DNA of 64,000 nucleotides. Origin: Ornithinimicrobium faecis. Its GTDB lineage: Bacteria; Actinomycetota; Actinomycetes; Actinomycetales; Dermatophilaceae. The translations under genes were made by a program, and so were the position numbers. Below the pieces are notes generated by a model. The model searched no databases, was not told the origin of the DNA, and worked only from the letters and a program-made list of their open reading frames with translations. The stretch covers positions 744,001-808,000 of the forward strand of contig NZ_CP099489.1 of NCBI RefSeq assembly GCF_023923225.1, written 5' to 3'. The stretch's first letter is position 1; each line of letters begins with the position of its first letter. Of this stretch, positions 4,171 through 62,563 are shown piece after piece.

Positions 4171-5280
4171 TCAGCCGAAGCCCTGCTTGGGCGACACGTC
4201 ATCGGTGTAGTCCGCCATGGTGTCGGAGCGCAGGTGCTCGCGCAGCACCTCCAGTTGCGCCTCGTGGGGGATCACGATTGACCCGGCGTAGTCGTCACTG
4301 CCGATGCCGCTCCACGGGGCGGTCACAAAGTTGATGTCGCCGCCGCGCACGTTGCGCATGGACCAGCCGAGGTCACGCATGTCGCCCACCGCGAAGCCGT
4401 CGTCGACGGTCAGGTTCTGGGTGCCAGCGTCGACCACGTCGGCCAGTCGGGCCGGGTTGGTGAAGGTCTCACGGGTCAGCACCTGGAGCATCAGAGCCTT
4501 GATGAAGGCCTGCTGGCGCTGACCGCGGGAGATGTCGCCCTGGCTGAGGGCATAGCGCTCACGGACGAACTTCAGGGCCGTCTCGCCATCCATCCGCTGG
4601 GTGCCCTCGGCGAAATCGGGGCTGGCCTCGGCCACGTTGACCTCGACGCCACCGACCGCGTCGGTCAGCGACTTGAAGCTCTCGAAGTCAGTGATCACCA
4701 CGTGGTCGATCGGCACGCCGACCAGGGGCTGGAGCGTCTGCACGAGCAGCGGTGTGCCGCCGAAGGAGTAGGCCGCATTGAGCTTGTTCTTGTTGTTCGA
4801 GCCGGGGATCTCCACGAAATAGTCGCGGGGGAAGTGCACCAGGTCGACGCGGTCACGGTCGTTTGAGATGTGCATCAGCACCATCACGTCGGAGCGTCCA
4901 CGCTCGGCGTCCACGTTGCGACTGTCCGAGCCCACGACGAGGATGTTCAGCGCGTCGCCTGCCTCCTCGGCGCGCTCGGGCGGCGTGGTCGGGGTGACCT
5001 CGCTGTCCTCACCGCGGATCGGGGAGTCCGGCAGCGGCAGCAACTCGGCGTGGGTGACGTTGTTGCTGACCCGCCAGTTCAGGAAGGCGACATAGCCGGC
5101 GACCGCAGCGATCGACACCAGGGCGAGCGTCACGACCGTGACGATGGCGATCCGCAGGCCACGGCGCTTGCGCCTCGGGCGGGTCGTCGGCTCTGAATCT
5201 TCGACGGAACCAGCGCCGTCGAAGATGTCGTGGTCATCTCCGGCGGCGTCCCGCGGCGTGTTCTCGTGATCCCCTGCCAT
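4171..5280 (-). CDS. LytR-CpsA-Psr family cell-wall glycopolymer ligase
   Basis: LCP enzymes transfer undecaprenyl-linked glycopolymers to peptidoglycan outside the membrane. The 369-residue protein has a charged cytoplasmic N-terminus, one transmembrane segment after RPRRKRRG (IAIVTVVTLALVSIAAVAGY), then the LCP domain with VVGSDSRN, the Asp/Arg motif GRSDVMVLMHI, HFPRDYFVEIPG and the SRGQRQQAFIKAL block. I chose ATG 5280: it follows a TACTAT box (5288-5293) by 7 bases, while an upstream start would overlap the divergent ygfZ promoter. Confidence 0.92.
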   Translation of the reverse strand: MAGDHENTPRDAAGDDHDIFDGAGSVEDSEPTTRPRRKRRGLRIAIVTVVTLALVSIAAVAGYVAFLNWRVSNNVTHAELLPLPDSPIRGEDSEVTPTTPPERAEEAGDALNILVVGSDSRNVDAERGRSDVMVLMHISNDRDRVDLVHFPRDYFVEIPGSNNKNKLNAAYSFGGTPLLVQTLQPLVGVPIDHVVITDFESFKSLTDAVGGVEVNVAEASPDFAEGTQRMDGETALKFVRERYALSQGDISRGQRQQAFIKALMLQVLTRETFTNPARLADVVDAGTQNLTVDDGFAVGDMRDLGWSMRNVRGGDINFVTAPWSGIGSDDYAGSIVIPHEAQLEVLREHLRSDTMADYTDDVSPKQGFG

Positions 5281-53890: not shown

Positions 53891-53901
53891 AAGGGGCCGT
53901 G

Positions 53902-54726
53902 ATGTCGCTGCGCCGCACACACACCGCAGTTCCCGGCCGACGGTTGGCTGCGCTCGCCGCCATCACCCTCGCCTGCACGCTCACCGCGTGCGGTGAGGCG
54001 GAGGACCAGCCGCTGGGGGCCGGCGCGGGTGGGGCGGGCCAGGGTGAGGCATCCGGCGACATCACGGTCTTTGCTGCCGCGTCGCTGACCGATACGTTCA
54101 CCGAGCTCGGCGAGGAGTTCGAGGCCGCGAACCCCGACGCCACCGTGACCTTCAGCTTCGCCGGCAGCTCCGCGCTGGCCCAGCAGATCCTCAGCGGTGC
54201 CCCGGCCGACGTCTTCGCCTCCGCCTCACCGGCGACCATGGCCCAGGTGACCGACGAGGAGCTGACCGAGGGGGAGCCTGTTGTCTTCGTGAACAACCGC
54301 CTGCAGATCGCGGTCCCCGCTGGCAACCCCGGGGGAGTCACGGGCCTGGAGGACCTCACCAAGGAGGACCTCACCGTCGCGCTGTGCGCCGAGGAGGTGC
54401 CCTGCGGCGCCGCCTCGGTCAAGGTCTTCGAGGCCGCGGGGCTCACACCGGCCCCCGACACCTATGAAGACGACGTGAGGGCGGCCCTGACCAAGGTGCG
54501 CCTCGACGAGGTCGATGCCGCACTCGTCTATCAGACCGACGTGCTGGTCGCCGGCGACGAGGTCGAGGGCATCGACTTCGCGGAGTCCGCCGAGGCCATC
54601 AACGACTATCCGATCGCCGCCCTGCTCGGGGCGCCCAACCCCGAGGGTGGGCAGGCGTTCATCGACTTCGTGCTGTCCGAGGAGGGGCAGGCGGTGCTTG
54701 GCTCGGCGGGGTTCGGTTCTCCGTGA
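53902..54726 (+). CDS. modA: molybdate ABC transporter substrate-binding lipoprotein
   Basis: 274 residues. Signal peptide with lipobox LTAC, Gly-rich linker, then ITVFAAASLTDTFTELGEEF carrying the oxyanion-binding Ser residues, FSFAGSSALAQQI, and ALVYQTDVL near the end. AAGGGG precedes the ATG at 53902; a GTG 3 bases earlier is an alternative. Followed with overlap by modB. Confidence 0.94.
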   Translation: MSLRRTHTAVPGRRLAALAAITLACTLTACGEAEDQPLGAGAGGAGQGEASGDITVFAAASLTDTFTELGEEFEAANPDATVTFSFAGSSALAQQILSGAPADVFASASPATMAQVTDEELTEGEPVVFVNNRLQIAVPAGNPGGVTGLEDLTKEDLTVALCAEEVPCGAASVKVFEAAGLTPAPDTYEDDVRAALTKVRLDEVDAALVYQTDVLVAGDEVEGIDFAESAEAINDYPIAALLGAPNPEGGQAFIDFVLSEEGQAVLGSAGFGSP

Positions 54727-55580
54727 CGGTCCGGCGTTCGACCGATCGTGGCACCCGGCGGCGCGGCGTGGCCGGAGACGCTGCGGACAGCCGGGGGAGC
54801 GGCATCCCACCGATCCTGCTGATCCCTGCTGGTCTGGGTCTCGCGTTCCTGCTCCTGCCGCTGGCCGGTCTGCTCGTGCGCACGCCGTGGTCGGACCTGG
54901 GCACCCTGTTGGCGCAGCCGGAGGTTTCGGAGGCGCTGCGGCTGTCCCTGATCACCGCAGTGACGGCGACCGGGATCTGCCTGGTCCTCGGGGTGCCGCT
55001 GGCGTGGGTGCTGGCCCGCGCGACCGTCCCCGGGATGAGGTTGGTCCGTGCCCTGCTCACCCTGCCGTTGGTGCTGCCCCCCGTCGTCGGCGGCGTCGCG
55101 CTCCTGCTGCTGCTGGGGCGGCGCGGACTGATCGGCCAACACCTCTATGACTGGTTCGGGCTGAGCCTGCCGTTCACCACCACGGCCGTGGTGCTCTCCC
55201 AGGCGTTCGTGGCGATGCCGTTCCTGGTGATCGCCGTCGAGGGCGCCCTGCGCGGGGCCGACCGGCGCTTCGAGGATGCTGCAGCGACCCTCGGCGCCAG
55301 CCGCTGGCTGATCTTCCGCAGGGTCACCCTGCCGCTGGTCGCGCCCGGCATCTCCGCCGGAGCGGTCCTGTGTTTTGCCCGCGCCCTGGGCGAGTTCGGC
55401 GCCACCATCACCTTCGCCGGCAACTTCCCCGGTGTCACCCGCACCATGCCGCTGTCGGTTTATCTCGCGCTGGAGTCCGACCCGGAGGCAGCCATCGTGC
55501 TCGCCCTGGTCCTGCTCCTGGTGTCGGTCGTCGTCCTGGTCGCCCTGCGCGGCCGCTGGGTCAGCGGGGTCGCCTCGTGA
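54723..55580 (+). CDS. modB: molybdate ABC transporter permease
   Basis: 285 residues, five or six helices, EAA motif ADRRFEDAAATLGASRWLIF, RALGEFGATITFAGNFPGVT characteristic of ModB. GTG overlaps the modA stop by 4 bases and the stop overlaps modC by 4 bases. Confidence 0.95.
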   Translation: MTVRRSTDRGTRRRGVAGDAADSRGSGIPPILLIPAGLGLAFLLLPLAGLLVRTPWSDLGTLLAQPEVSEALRLSLITAVTATGICLVLGVPLAWVLARATVPGMRLVRALLTLPLVLPPVVGGVALLLLLGRRGLIGQHLYDWFGLSLPFTTTAVVLSQAFVAMPFLVIAVEGALRGADRRFEDAAATLGASRWLIFRRVTLPLVAPGISAGAVLCFARALGEFGATITFAGNFPGVTRTMPLSVYLALESDPEAAIVLALVLLLVSVVVLVALRGRWVSGVAS

Positions 55581-56695
55581 CTCCTGAACCCACGCCCCGG
55601 CCGACCCCAGATCCCCGTGAGGCCGCAGCAGGGGGTGGCCTCACGGCATACCTGCCGATCTCCCGGGGTGACTTCGACCTGGAGGTGGACCTGGCAGTCG
55701 CACCCGGCCAGGTCGTGGCGCTGCTGGGACCCAACGGCGCGGGCAAGACCACCGTGCTGCACGCGCTCGCGGGGCTGCTGCGGCTGCGGGCCGGATCGGT
55801 CGTCCTCGATGGCCGGGTGCTGGATGAGCCGGCCGCGGGCACCTTTGTGCCGCCGGCGGGGCGTGATGTGGGCGTGGTGTTCCAGGACTACCTGCTGTTC
55901 CCGCACCTCACCGCGCTGGAGAACGTGGCCTTTGGCCCGCGTGCGCGGGGGAGCGGGAGGGCCGATGCGCGCCGGGAGGCAGCGCAGTGGCTGGACCGGG
56001 TTGGTCTGGCGGCCCATGCCACCGCGCGGCCGGGGCAGCTCTCTGGTGGGCAGGCCCAGCGGGTGGCCCTGGCGCGCGCCCTGGCGACGCGGCCGCGGCT
56101 GGTGCTGCTCGACGAGCCGCTCGCCGCCCTGGATGCCGCGACCCGGCTCGAGGTGCGCGCCGACCTGGCCCGGCACCTGCGGGAGTTCGGCGGCAGCGCG
56201 GTGATGGTCACCCACGACCCGCTCGATGCCATGGTCGTCGCCGACCGCATCGTCGTGCTCGAGGGCGGTCGGGTCGTGCAGGACGGGTCACCAGCGCAGG
56301 TGGCCCGGGCACCGCGGACGGAGTATGTCGCACGCCTGGTCGGTCTCAACCTGCTGCGGGGCGCGGGGTCGGGTCGGGCGGCCGTGGACATGGAGGCGGG
56401 CGGGGTGCTGCACGTCGCCGAAGCGGCGGACGGCCCGGTGCTCGTCGCGCTGCCGCCGACGTCGGTGACTCTGCATCGTCAGCAGCCTGAGGGGTCGGCT
56501 CGCAACGTCTGGGCGGGCACCATCGCCGGCCTGGAGCAGCACGCCCACACGGTCCGCGCGCAGGTCGCAGCGCCGGATCGCCCGCCCGTCCTTGCTGATG
56601 TGACGCCGGCGGCGGTCGCCGAGCTCGACCTGGTGGTCGGAGCTCCGGTGTGGCTGTCGTTCAAGGCGACCGACACCCACGTCTATCCGCGGTAG
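55577..56695 (+). CDS. modC: molybdate ABC transporter ATP-binding protein
   Basis: 372 residues. Walker A LLGPNGAGKTT, Q-loop VVFQDYLLFPH, signature LSGGQAQRVALARA, Walker B VLLDEPLAALD, switch His MVTHDPLDAM, then a single C-terminal Mop/TOBE domain (NVWAGTIAGLEQHAHTVRAQ) that binds molybdate as a regulatory signal. Start GTG 55577 gives the GTGA overlap with modB. Confidence 0.95.
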   Translation: MTPEPTPRPTPDPREAAAGGGLTAYLPISRGDFDLEVDLAVAPGQVVALLGPNGAGKTTVLHALAGLLRLRAGSVVLDGRVLDEPAAGTFVPPAGRDVGVVFQDYLLFPHLTALENVAFGPRARGSGRADARREAAQWLDRVGLAAHATARPGQLSGGQAQRVALARALATRPRLVLLDEPLAALDAATRLEVRADLARHLREFGGSAVMVTHDPLDAMVVADRIVVLEGGRVVQDGSPAQVARAPRTEYVARLVGLNLLRGAGSGRAAVDMEAGGVLHVAEAADGPVLVALPPTSVTLHRQQPEGSARNVWAGTIAGLEQHAHTVRAQVAAPDRPPVLADVTPAAVAELDLVVGAPVWLSFKATDTHVYPR

Positions 56696-58218: not shown

Positions 58219-59250
58219 TCAGCCGAGGTGGGCGAGCAACCGCTCCAGTCCCTCCTCGCCGAGCACCTCGCCGGCCAGCAGCGGGACCTGCACCGTGGGC
58301 AGGTGAGGCAGGGACTGAGCCAGCTGAGCGACATGCGGCTCCTCGAGTTGGCGCCGCGAGGCGAGCAGGTCCCCGTCGTCAGCAGGGGAGCGCTTGTTGA
58401 TCACCACCGCCGCCACGTCCATCCCCGAGCGGACCAGCTGCTCGTGCAGCTCGACCGACTCCAGGACCGGCAGCCGCTCGGCGGCCGTGACGATCACGAA
58501 GGACGTGCTGGTGCGGTCGGTGAGCACCTCCCGCAGGTGACGGAACCGCTGCTGGCGACGGTCGAGCACGGCCCGGATCTCCTCATCGCGACGCCCCCGC
58601 CGGTCCTGCGTGCGCCGCGGTCCGATCGAGGTGCCAGAGCCTGGGAGGCGACGGGAGCCGATCACCTCCGCGGCGTCATAGTCGGAGCCCTCCAGCCCGC
58701 GCAGGGCCGCCCCGAACCTGGCCGACTTGTCCTGGCGGCGCAGCAGACCGTCGGTCCAGGCCTGCATCAGCTCGGGCAGCGCGATGAGGCGGGTGGTGTG
58801 GCCACTCGGGGCGGTGTCGAAGATGACCAACTCGCCTGAAACGCGCTGCTCGACGACCTCGGCGATCCGCTCCAGGACCGCTGCCTCGTGCGTGCCGGGG
58901 GCGTCTCGGGCCAGGTCCAGGTGCTTGTCCACCTCGCCCTGCAGGTGGTCGGCCATCAGGCGGCGCATGGTGGTGCGGACGGCCCGCAGGTGCTCGTCGG
59001 TGGTGCGGGTGGGGTCGATCTCCAGCCCGCGCAACAGCGGTGCGAGCTCGACGGGGGAGTCCCCGACCTCGCGCCGCCACAGGTGCCCCAGGTTGTGCGC
59101 CGGGTCGGTGGACACCACGAGTGTGGGGCGGCCAGCACGGGCCTGGGCCAGGCCGAGGGCGGAGGCCACGGCAGTCTTGCCGACGCCGCCCTTGCCACCG
59201 ACAAAGAGGACGTCGCGCGCTCGGGTGAGGTCGGTCAGCGGGTGGGACAT
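58219..59250 (-). CDS. ArsA/Get3-family ATPase
   Basis: 343 residues. Deviant Walker A GGKGGVGKTAVA, VVSTDPAHNLGHLW, switch FDTAPSGHTTRLIALPELM and late NKRSPADDG. It lacks the arsenite-binding Cys triad and is a single, not tandem, ATPase. Arg-rich middle region (RTQDRRGRRDEEIR). ATG 59250 has GGAG four bases upstream. It follows the CC-star gene by 65 bases and cstA lies before that; no arsenic genes are near, so the name ArsA marks only the family. Confidence 0.9.
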   Translation of the reverse strand: MSHPLTDLTRARDVLFVGGKGGVGKTAVASALGLAQARAGRPTLVVSTDPAHNLGHLWRREVGDSPVELAPLLRGLEIDPTRTTDEHLRAVRTTMRRLMADHLQGEVDKHLDLARDAPGTHEAAVLERIAEVVEQRVSGELVIFDTAPSGHTTRLIALPELMQAWTDGLLRRQDKSARFGAALRGLEGSDYDAAEVIGSRRLPGSGTSIGPRRTQDRRGRRDEEIRAVLDRRQQRFRHLREVLTDRTSTSFVIVTAAERLPVLESVELHEQLVRSGMDVAAVVINKRSPADDGDLLASRRQLEEPHVAQLAQSLPHLPTVQVPLLAGEVLGEEGLERLLAHLG

Positions 59251-59315
59251 CAGGCTCCTGGTTGGGGGCGGGTGTGCCGGCACAGGGCGGGCTGGCAGGG
59301 GAGAGCGCTGGAGGA

Positions 59316-59591
59316 TCAGCAGCAGGAGAAGTGGTCGAGGGGGGAGCGGTCCAGGCCCATCCTGCGGTGCCAGTCGTGGAACTGGTCATAGACCACGGGC
59401 AACAGCTCCACCGTGTAGTAGCTCACCGGGTTGGGCACCCCCAGGGCCTCGGCCATGACGATGACCAGGAACAGGTCGTCCTCGTCCTGCTGGGCCCGGG
59501 CGAAGGTGCGGCGATAGGGGCCGCTGTAGAAATCACGCAGCCCCGCAGCCACCTGTGACAGGCGGCTGCGGGGCTGGTCGGAGTCCTGCAT
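59316..59591 (-). CDS. cory-CC-star-type small protein ending in Cys-Cys
   Basis: 91 residues: GLRDFYSGPYRRTFARAQQD, DEDDLFLVIVMAEALGVPNP, VSYYTVELLPVVYDQFHDWH and a C-terminus SPLDHFSCC with two cysteines as the very last residues. Small proteins with this end are found beside ArsA-type ATPases. The start is ATG 59591 (or GTG 59594), 41 bases after the cstA stop. It occupies the place of YbdD, the short CstA partner that also ends in Cys-Cys. A joint function with CstA is inferred. Confidence 0.8.
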   Translation of the reverse strand: MQDSDQPRSRLSQVAAGLRDFYSGPYRRTFARAQQDEDDLFLVIVMAEALGVPNPVSYYTVELLPVVYDQFHDWHRRMGLDRSPLDHFSCC

Positions 59592-59632
59592 CACGCGCAG
59601 GTTACCTCGGGCTCATCCCGTGGAGGTCCGGC

Positions 59633-61351
59633 TCAGTCCTGAGACCGTGTGCTCGCGGCAGCATCGACGGCCTCCTGAGCCAACTCGGCGTCGTCATCAC
59701 CGTCATAGGCACGAGCGGTCCGCATCGCGGCGAAAGCCTCCACGATGACCCACAGGGCAGCGATCAGGATGACGATGTCCATGATCAGCAGCAACCAGTT
59801 CGACTCCTCATAGAAGGTGCCGAGCTGGACGAACAGCGCATAGACGGTCACAGCCCCGACGAACACCAGCGGGATCAGCGCCGGCAGCGGGGTGCGGCCG
59901 CGACGCAGCAGCATGATCGCGATGATCGACAGCGTCAGCGCCGCCATGAGCTGGTTGGTGGTGCCGAACAGCGGCCAGATCAGCATGCCGCCGGATCCGT
60001 CGGCGCCAGCACCGAAGGTCAGCGCCAGGCCGACACCCACCGCGATGATGGTCGCCAGGTTCTTGCGCAGGGTGACCCCGGCAATGTCGCCGATCTCCTG
60101 CACGACGAAGCGCTGCAGGCGCACGCCGGTGTCCATCGTGGTGGCCGCGAACAGGATGGCGGTCGTGGCCATGATCGTCGCAGACAGGGACTGGGGCAGG
60201 CCCAGACCGGCCTCGATGATCGCGCCGCCACCTTCGACGAACGCGCTGACCCCACCGTCGTTGAACGCTTGGTAGACGTTCTCCCAGTCGGCGAGCGTCT
60301 TGAAGCCGGCGGTGGTGGCGATGATGGCGCCGAGGGCCAGCAGACCCTCGCCGACCGCCCCGAAATAGCCGACAAACCTGGCGTCGCTCTCCTTGGCCAG
60401 CTGCTTGGAGCTGGTGCCGGAGCTGACCATCCCGTGGAAACCGGAGATGGCACCGCAGGCGATGGTGACGAACAGCAGGGGCATGATGCCGGGCGTGCCA
60501 TCCGGGACGTTCTGGTTGTAGGCCGGGGCCACGATCTCGGGGCGCGCGATCAGCACCGAGCCGTAGAGGATGCCCAGGGCGATGAACAGCTGCAGACCGT
60601 TGATGTAGTCACGCGGCTGCAGCAGCATCCACACCGGCAGCATCGAGGCAATCCCGGCATAGACGAACAGCACAATGATCCAGAACGCGTTGTCCGGCAG
60701 GCCGAGCACCGTCTCGGGCAGGGCCAGCGGCACGTTGTCGCCGACCACGATCAGGGCGTAGAGCGCGACGACGCCCACGACGGAGACCAGCGGCAGGTTC
60801 CACTTGTAACGGTAGATCGCCTGCCCGATCAGGAAGGCCACCACCAGGGCGCCCCAGGTCGGGATCACCGCAGTCGGGGTGGCGATGAGCAGGCCGGCGA
60901 TGACGACCGCGAAGGCCGCGTTGACCATCAGCAGCAGCAGGAAGATCACGACCAGGAACAGGTTGCGTCCCCGGGCTCCGATGTAGCGCCCCGACAGGGC
61001 TCCGATCGACTGGCCGCGGTTGCGGACCGAGGCCCACAACGCACCCATGTCGTGCATCCCGGCGAAGAAGACCGTGCCGAGGGTCACCCAGAGGAAGGCG
61101 GGCAGCCAGCCCCAGATGACGGCGACGGCCGGGCCGACGATGGGCGCGGCTCCGGCGACCGAGGTGAAGTGGTGGCCCCACAGCACGTACTTGTTGGTGG
61201 GGACGTAGTCGACACCGTCCTCGAACTGCTCCGAGGGGGCGGTGCGGGAGTCGTCGAGGGCGTAGATCCGGTTGGCGAGGTACTTCGAGTACAGGAAGTA
61301 GCCAGCCAGGATCATGCCCACGCCGACCAGCGCGAGTACCAGGGAGTTCAT
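59633..61351 (-). CDS. cstA: carbon starvation protein A (CstA/BtsT-type transporter)
   Basis: 572 residues, about 16 membrane helices. Starts LVLALVGVGMILAGYFLYSK; DGVDYVPTNKYVLWGHHFTS, GPAVAVIWGWLPAFLWVTLG and GHDMGALWASVRNRG-like FAGMHDMGALWASVRNRGQS are typical. Family members import pyruvate or peptides. First gene of the run with the CC-star protein and ArsA-type ATPase. A TAGGGT box and an AAAGGG ribosome site lie upstream on the minus strand. Confidence 0.94.
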   Translation of the reverse strand: MNSLVLALVGVGMILAGYFLYSKYLANRIYALDDSRTAPSEQFEDGVDYVPTNKYVLWGHHFTSVAGAAPIVGPAVAVIWGWLPAFLWVTLGTVFFAGMHDMGALWASVRNRGQSIGALSGRYIGARGRNLFLVVIFLLLLMVNAAFAVVIAGLLIATPTAVIPTWGALVVAFLIGQAIYRYKWNLPLVSVVGVVALYALIVVGDNVPLALPETVLGLPDNAFWIIVLFVYAGIASMLPVWMLLQPRDYINGLQLFIALGILYGSVLIARPEIVAPAYNQNVPDGTPGIMPLLFVTIACGAISGFHGMVSSGTSSKQLAKESDARFVGYFGAVGEGLLALGAIIATTAGFKTLADWENVYQAFNDGGVSAFVEGGGAIIEAGLGLPQSLSATIMATTAILFAATTMDTGVRLQRFVVQEIGDIAGVTLRKNLATIIAVGVGLALTFGAGADGSGGMLIWPLFGTTNQLMAALTLSIIAIMLLRRGRTPLPALIPLVFVGAVTVYALFVQLGTFYEESNWLLLIMDIVILIAALWVIVEAFAAMRTARAYDGDDDAELAQEAVDAAASTRSQD

Positions 61352-62272: not shown

Positions 62273-62563
62273 ATGGGAGCCGCACCGAAGATCGCCGGCG
62301 CCGACGCACCCCAGGGGTTGACCGAGCGCGACCGCGAAATCATCGACTTTGAGCGCCAGTGGTGGAAGTATGCCGGCGCCAAGGAGCAGGCGATCAAGGA
62401 TCTGTTCGACATGAGCGCCACGCGCTATTACCAGCTGCTCAACCAGCTGATCGACTCCCAAGAGGCTCTGGAGCACGACCCGATGCTGGTCAAGCGGCTG
62501 CGCCGGATGCGCGCCCAGCGCCAGAAGTCGCGCTCGGCACGCCGACTCGGCGTCCAGATCTGA
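62273..62563 (+). CDS. DUF3263 protein, probable small DNA-binding protein
   Basis: 96 residues, an actinobacterial family. LTERDREIIDFERQWWKYAG, then AKEQAIKDLFDMSATRYYQL resembles a helix-turn-helix, and the C-terminus is basic (RLRRMRAQRQKSRSARRLG). GAAGG precedes the ATG. The palindrome at 62189-62206 may be its own operator. Role not known. Confidence 0.85.
   Translation: MGAAPKIAGADAPQGLTERDREIIDFERQWWKYAGAKEQAIKDLFDMSATRYYQLLNQLIDSQEALEHDPMLVKRLRRMRAQRQKSRSARRLGVQI

Follow-up and report, generated by a model that had tools for sequence, protein, structure and literature searches.

ArsA-type ATPases have known roles in arsenite pumps and in the targeting of membrane proteins; what would such an enzyme do when its gene closes an operon that begins with a carbon starvation transporter? 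The question is posed by a stretch of 64,000 nucleotides of Ornithinimicrobium faecis (NZ_CP099489.1, positions 744,001 to 808,000; hereafter the window), in which cstA, cstX and arsA lie head to tail on the minus strand, all inside 58219-61351. The original prediction, made from the DNA letters, had described cstA followed by a 91-residue protein ending in Cys-Cys and then by an ArsA/Get3-like ATPase, and all three genes are indeed present, each with a profile match. The CstA-CstX-ArsA operon is real and strongly conserved; its kind has been known since 2010, and the window holds a new member. Our tentative reading, held with somewhat less than even confidence and drawn from sequence comparison, is that the ATPase and CstX may form a cytosolic control or assembly module that senses thiols or soft metals and decides whether CstA is active.

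The CstA-CstX-ArsA idea is already in print. Castillo & Saier 2010 (PMC2963123) reported an ArsA homologue together with CstA in 26 cases, and in 24 of these the small protein CstX as well; in their proposal, ArsA supplies the energy for CstA and CstX connects the two. This paper was the sole match for CstX together with CstA in the open-licence literature, where searches for cory-CC-star, and for the names of the carbon starvation protein and the ATPase together, returned no paper. Like the window, the operons of Castillo & Saier associate three genes, with a single-domain ATPase of about 330 residues and a CstX of about 90; adjacent ATPase pairs are also reported there, as in the genomes described below whose CstX lacks the terminal Cys-Cys (CC-less genomes). 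In contrast to the present analysis, the accessible part of that paper makes no mention of the C-terminal Cys-Cys, of HxxH or of a thioredoxin-fold gene. The CstA-linked ArsA branch proposed in 2010 gains motifs that can be mutated, namely HxxH and Cys-Cys of CstX and a Cys-free ATPase. New here are two findings from relatives: CstX-ArsA seems to have been lost repeatedly where cstA was retained, and a thioredoxin-like partner without a name probably contains, in one case, selenocysteine. These additions turn the general idea of energizing into testable ones.

The operon in the window

The window's CstA scored 440 bits against PF02554 (gathering cut-off 27) and 217 bits against NF011590, the NCBIfam equivalog of the E. 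coli-type pyruvate/proton symporter, whose cut-off is 1188. The small protein reached 128.9 bits against NCBIfam NF041419, "cory-CC-star" (cut-off 80), and shares the C-terminal Cys-Cys that is a feature of that family. At about 90 residues, and encoded together with cstA and arsA, the gene at 59316-59591 also corresponds to the CstX of Castillo & Saier 2010. Because size, position and partners agree, we infer that CC-star and CstX are one family. With 193 bits, the ATPase is placed in the TRC40/GET3/ArsA subfamily TIGR00345 (cut-off 135); against the arsenical pump ArsA equivalog TIGR04291 it attained 120 of the required 650 bits and has one domain, in 343 residues, instead of two. Its translation retains the P-loop GGKGGVGKT and the switch DTAPSGHT (DTAPxGHT). 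The listed open reading frame runs for 354 residues from a GTG at 59283, and the likelier start, judging by an AGGAG just upstream, is the ATG at 59250. The genome has a single CstA locus and no match to YbdD (PF04328), and the closest CC-star relatives in the genome scan described below are from Ornithinimicrobium, at 98% identity.

Table 1. Coordinates of the operon, its motifs and the probable selenoprotein gene of a relative (positions in the window unless a locus is named).
Feature	Location	Strand	Basis
cstA, 572 aa, CstA-family transporter of the short type; opens the operon	59633..61351	-	PF02554
cstX (cory-CC-star gene), 91 aa from ATG, Cys-Cys at the C-terminus (...FSCC)	59316..59591	-	NF041419
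Codons of CstX H72 and H75, invariant HxxH	59367..59378	-	alignment A4 and DNA
Codons of CstX C90 and C91 (C-terminal Cys-Cys), TGA stop next	59319..59324	-	DNA; invariant in A4
arsA-type ATPase gene, single-domain, 343 aa, zero cysteines	58219..59250	-	TIGR00345; translation
ATPase P-loop GGKGGVGKT, residues 18-26	59173..59199	-	translation
Hairpin of 18-19 bp within the first cstX codons	59538..59576	-	shuffle test and relatives
Gene of the probable thioredoxin-like selenoprotein (U-C-G) of Cytobacillus spongiae NZ_CP089998, flanked by cstA and cory-CC-star	L171:4600-4971	+	in-frame TGA

Linkage across genomes

In a sample of 246 Actinobacteriota genomes, profile searches found CC-star in 20 (17 above cut-off; G060, G034 and G037 below), PF02554 in 67 and YbdD in 26. 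All 20 CC-star genomes fall among the 67 with CstA (hypergeometric 4.7e-13, relatedness ignored), and the order cstA, CC-star, ArsA is found in every one of the 20, within the limits of the contigs; the exceptions lie in the assemblies, with G105 spread over two contigs and G034 having the ArsA beside CstA cut at a contig end. The co-occurrence, whose analysis the original prediction had proposed as a check, far exceeds chance. Eleven of these 20 genomes have a fourth gene between cstA and CC-star. Among the CstA genomes that lack CstX, 25 possess YbdD, three have the fourth gene and 19 have neither of these; G162 is the one genome carrying both the CstX and the YbdD systems.

A scan of named genomes yielded 504 CC-star relatives, from which 80 loci were kept. 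ArsA directly follows CC-star in all 80, and in 36 its match begins, by coordinates, a few bases before the end of CstX. Directly before CC-star, cstA is present in 60 loci; three end too early to judge, and 17 have no cstA in the flank. The possibility that such pairs occur mostly without cstA nearby, which would have spoken against a linkage, is not what is seen (17 of 77 testable pairs). All 17 loci are labelled gammaproteobacterial, one being a metagenome-assembled genome labelled Klebsiella. A CstA-family gene is encoded elsewhere in 13 of these genomes, in two of them (G256 and G257) seemingly of the long type only, and no CstA was found in four of the 17, nor in two of the three edge cases. 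The trio also resides on annotated plasmids of Pseudochrobactrum, Paracoccus and Cytobacillus (three of six matches read).

Besides cstA and ArsA, the biggest cluster of recurrent neighbours outside the gammaproteobacterial block is found in 8 of the 80 loci. Within that block, L106, L113, L117 and similar loci (~2.6-6.2 kb) show cstX-arsA following a sodium:neurotransmitter-type symporter gene together with ratA and ratB, close to smpB and apart from cstA. Members of the symporter cluster occur in 15 of the 80 loci, and two representatives match PF00209. Ten matches in 95 genomes included five smpB-ratA-ratB symporter sites, three with CstX (two of which are the starting loci) and two without it. 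Since the same site exists without CstX, the symporter is weakened as a candidate second client.

CstX and the ATPase

An alignment of 102 of the 120 fetched CstX relatives with the window protein (A4, 103 sequences) has seven invariant residues: G51, P55, H72, H75, G79, C90 and C91. The Cys-Cys end behind HxxH is present in all 120 listed of 680 close relatives. In a related branch of 5262 proteins, HxxH and Cys-Cys occur in none of the 120 listed, and the profiles of this CC-less branch and of the CC type match each other (hhalign Prob 86, E 5e-6). The joint absence of the two motifs would fit a single shared site. The CC-less genomes of the actinobacterial sample, G034 and G037, have paired CstX-like (CC-star-like) genes with paired ArsA genes; loci with CC-less CstX in pairs and paired ArsA are L042:7240-8155 (plus strand) and L043.

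An AlphaFold2 model of CstX has helices at residues 5-49 and 55-78 and places the cysteines in the tail (mean pLDDT 83, last block 61); Foldseek returned no match to the model in the PDB at E 10 or better. The hydropathy of CstX reaches a 19-residue mean of 1.49. Values of at least 1.6 are attained by 2 of 120 CC-type CstX proteins versus 49 of 120 in the CC-less branch.

For the ATPase, 95 rows were compared, namely the window protein and a single row apiece for 94 of 97 loci, with L035, L036 and L157 contributing no row. As rows were picked by a loose P-loop pattern plus DTAP, those motifs are kept by construction; DPAH is present in at least 95% of rows. No column has Cys in at least 15% of the 95 rows, and CxxC, the zinc motif of Get3-type proteins, is found in none of them. 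The motif is visible in PDB entry 3zq6, and many Get3 chains are among the PDB sequence matches of the ATPase. Because of the missing Cys-rich column and CxxC, the operon ATPases appear to have neither conserved metalloid cysteines nor the Get3 zinc motif. Their likeness to Get3/TRC40 consists in the TIGR00345 match, and the absence of CxxC sets them apart from the Get3 tail-anchor factor. Like the ArsA-ArsD-ArsB pump, the operon combines an ArsA-fold ATPase with a membrane carrier, and its four-gene relatives add a vicinal-Cys thioredoxin-like protein that weakly matches ArsD. Unlike in that pump, the carrier is CstA and the ATPase is single-domain, without conserved Cys and under the ArsA equivalog cut-off.

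CstA clades and the comparison with YbdD

A maximum-likelihood tree of CstA was built from 70 rows longer than 350 aa, a limit that excluded, e.g., L026, L036 and L049; L079 stands in for the window's CstA, and six detached CstAs were sampled. Clade 1 (36 rows, 99/98) unites the CstX-linked, the fourth-gene-only and the detached gammaproteobacterial CstAs, and clade 2 (24 rows, 100/100) the YbdD-linked ones with four long gammaproteobacterial CstAs, so that partner type tracks CstA type. The placement of the CC-less rows and of those with neither partner is unsure, because the tree program flagged long branches among them. Within the CstX clade, CstX-ArsA seems to have been lost at three places with cstA retained. 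With tblastn, no CstX or ArsA was found in 20 YbdD loci (~3 kb), nine "neither" loci and three fourth-gene-only loci. Cys299 and His306 of CstA are shared by both groups (86/86 in the CstX clade, 24/24 in the YbdD clade). No sequence match to CstA was obtained in the PDB at E 1.

In E. coli, pyruvate uptake falls to 13% of wild type without cstA and to 20% without ybdD (PMC5847655), which supports the statement of the original prediction that CstA needs YbdD there. Its description of YbdD as ending in Cys-Cys holds for most of the proteins but not for all. By their coordinates, 24 of the 26 YbdD genes follow a long-type CstA at a distance of at most 0.7 kb, and two are on other contigs; among the 20 proteins extracted the C-terminus is Cys-Cys in 15 and Cys-Pro in five, so that the final Cys is not universal. 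The YbdD genes of one actinobacterial family, f18 (L064, L069, L070, L071 and L074), have Cys-Pro followed by two stops. As for the proposal that the window's CC protein is a YbdD analogue, the position and the tie to CstA and an ATPase agree with it, but no homology was detected. The protein had no match to YbdD/Sel_put PF04328 at E 1, and an hhalign comparison of the two families gave Prob 4.2, with the alignment confined to the last six columns. The E. coli pair thus resembles the window in having a small gene directly after cstA, which usually ends in Cys-Cys and is needed there for pyruvate uptake. It differs in the CstA clade, in the undetected homology of YbdD and CstX, and in the absence of CstX and ArsA from the 20 YbdD loci.

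A thioredoxin-like fourth gene and a probable selenoprotein

The fourth gene encodes a thioredoxin-like protein with an invariant CCG, of a family without a name. Its vicinal cysteines are present in all 66 rows of alignment A5 (66 of 120 fetched relatives), and Foldseek gave thioredoxin-like and weak ArsD matches. In three loci, L045:2714-3124 (minus strand), L046:2802-3215 (minus strand) and L047 (minus strand, from 2702), the CCG protein stands directly after cstA, with no CstX profile match. Among Gammaproteobacteria, the gene occurs in 1 of 274 genomes. L200, from the gammaproteobacterial genome G527, has cstA, the CCG protein and CstX in order and no ArsA within a short flank. No fourth gene was found in the window's own genome.

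In Cytobacillus spongiae, the fourth protein is probably a selenoprotein. RefSeq annotates at L171 only a part after the TGA, a 95-aa "hypothetical protein" that is the tail of the fourth gene. The frame is open upstream past an ATG at 4600 behind AGAGGGAGGG, with a TGA at 4648-4650 as the lone exception, and this TGA coincides exactly with the first of the two invariant cysteines. Exchange of Cys for selenocysteine (Sec) is typical at redox-active positions. Immediately 3' of the TGA begins a hairpin with a GGUG loop, and a hairpin right after the TGA is expected for a bacterial selenocysteine insertion sequence (SECIS) element. Also encoded on this replicon are selB (346 bits against a cut-off of 242, and annotated as selB as well) and a tRNA-Sec with the anticodon TCA, called by ARAGORN. 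As controls, the selB profile exceeded its cut-off in 2 of 14 well-known genomes and the tRNA-Sec profile in 5 of 14, so the ARAGORN call is the firmer evidence for tRNA-Sec. Given where the only stop lies and that decoding genes are present, Sec is much likelier than a pseudogene. An apparent second Sec case in G072 was rejected because the TGA in question terminates the gene and its CCG is intact. When the Cytobacillus form was compared with plasmid records, no other record matched.

A possible mechanism and its alternatives

In the mechanism that we favour tentatively, CstA, which belongs by family to the CstA/BtsT membrane transporters, would probably carry pyruvate, a different small organic acid or a peptide, to judge from its relatives. 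CstX would be a hairpin of helices whose flexible C-terminal tail bears Cys-Cys behind HxxH, and the ATPase a Cys-free, single-domain switch enzyme of the ArsA/Get3 type that should act as a dimer. By cycling between an ATP-closed and an open state, the ATPase may dock CstX on CstA or release it, and the tail cysteines together with the two histidines could read a thiol or soft-metal signal that renders CstA active or not. In four-gene relatives, the thioredoxin-fold protein with its vicinal cysteines (Sec-Cys in one Bacillaceae relative) might set or reset the thiol state. We infer all of the contacts, the gating and a greater age of the four-gene form. As to substrates, a pyruvate-specific mutant phenotype has been reported for a distant CstA of Desulfovibrio (PMC10102598), and the CstA relative BtsT has been termed an H+/pyruvate symporter (PMC7730263).

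A bolder proposal, which we regard as doubtful, places one large CstA clade under a thiol/selenol relay composed of the CCG thioredoxin-fold family, CstX and the Cys-free ATPase, with the operon of the window derived by reduction from an ancestor of four genes. If true, nutrient uptake by CstA would be directly redox-gated, and a new selenoprotein family would be linked to a carbon starvation transporter.

Several observations weigh against a thiol- or metal-sensing module. The window's operon and genome are without the fourth gene, and for that reason the thiol reading of the window has to be carried by the CstX tail by itself. The partnership as such does not require the CstX cysteines, since CC-less CstX occurs with paired ArsA in G034 and G037, and the co-loss of HxxH and Cys-Cys may trace to one or a few ancestral events. 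The CstX model has a pTM of 0.46 and no PDB match, and for the fourth protein Foldseek gave no match as good as E 0.001. The Sec form is known from one case, whose hairpin is moderately unusual (z -2.2, with 7 of 200 shuffles equally stable). No CstA was found in 6 of the 20 CstX-ArsA genomes without an adjacent cstA, though these genomes are possibly incomplete, and the search for ArsA beside YbdD covered short flanks (~3 kb). Finally, searches of the open-licence literature found no experiment on any CstX.

Four alternatives have to be set against this reading. The likeliest of them is metal loading, in which the Cys-free ArsA would act as a metal-insertion ATPase of the SIMIBI class and fill a His2Cys2 site of CstX (HxxH and Cys-Cys) that CstA needs. 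The invariance of H72, H75, C90 and C91 across the 103 rows, the joint absence of the two motifs from the listed CC-less proteins, and the thioredoxin-like fold, weak ArsD matches and vicinal cysteines of the fourth protein would all suit such a site. We nevertheless consider it unlikely, as the CstX cysteines sit in the low-confidence tail of the model, the ATPase has no column with Cys in at least 15% of rows, and outside the one gammaproteobacterial block no non-operon neighbour family (families being defined by cluster only) is found in more than 8 of the 80 loci. Primary active transport, as proposed by Castillo & Saier 2010, in which ATP hydrolysis by ArsA drives CstA and CstX couples the two, ranks behind metal loading. 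It draws on the operon and co-evolution argument of that paper and on the published evidence cited there for a part of ArsA in powering the efflux of arsenite with ArsB (PMC2963123), and the ATPase retains its P-loop and DTAPSGHT switch. Yet CstA occurs without CstX among the 67 CstA genomes (25 with YbdD, 3 with the fourth gene and 19 with none), ArsA was found neither in the short flanks of the 20 YbdD loci nor in the nine "neither" and three fourth-gene-only loci, CstX-ArsA was seemingly dropped at three places in the CstX clade, and the relative BtsT is called an H+/pyruvate symporter (PMC7730263). Since sister CstAs seem to manage without the ATPase and close relatives have apparently lost it, it is unlikely to be a transport motor, and a thiol- or metal-controlled module is favoured over an ATP-driven pump.

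Lower again in our estimation stands a Get3-like assembly role, with ArsA targeting or inserting CstX, as a partly hydrophobic helical hairpin, into the membrane beside CstA. The subfamily shared with Get3/TRC40 and the many Get3 chains among the PDB matches would accord with this, as would the fairly hydrophobic stretch of CstX (mean 1.49), the CstX set that was called single-TMS (transmembrane segment) in PMC2963123, and the 49 of 120 CC-less proteins that reach a hydropathy of 1.6. Against it, just 2 of 120 CC-type CstX proteins reach that value, and CxxC is missing in 95 of 95 ATPase rows. By far the least probable is that CstX-ArsA serves several transporters as a general helper, such as the sodium:neurotransmitter-type symporter upstream in Gammaproteobacteria. 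The symporter cluster at 15 of 80 loci and the four of 17 full-flank genomes in which no CstA was found could be taken in this sense, but two of the five smpB-ratA-ratB symporter sites lack CstX, and 13 of the 17 genomes encode a CstA elsewhere.

Other features of the window

The hairpin within the first cstX codons is unusually stable (z -4.2; none of 200 shuffles equally stable). It is kept in all six Ornithinimicrobium relatives examined, with arms of 17-21 nt, and a longer version occurs in Serinicoccus (L089). It could separate the expression of cstA from that of cstX-arsA. Elsewhere in the window, positions 53899-56695 (plus strand) hold a three-gene ABC importer with a solute-binding protein, a permease and an ATPase with a TOBE domain, which may be molybdate-like. 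At 62273-62563 (plus strand), a DUF3263 protein scored 159.5 bits against NCBIfam NapA, just under the cut-off of 160.

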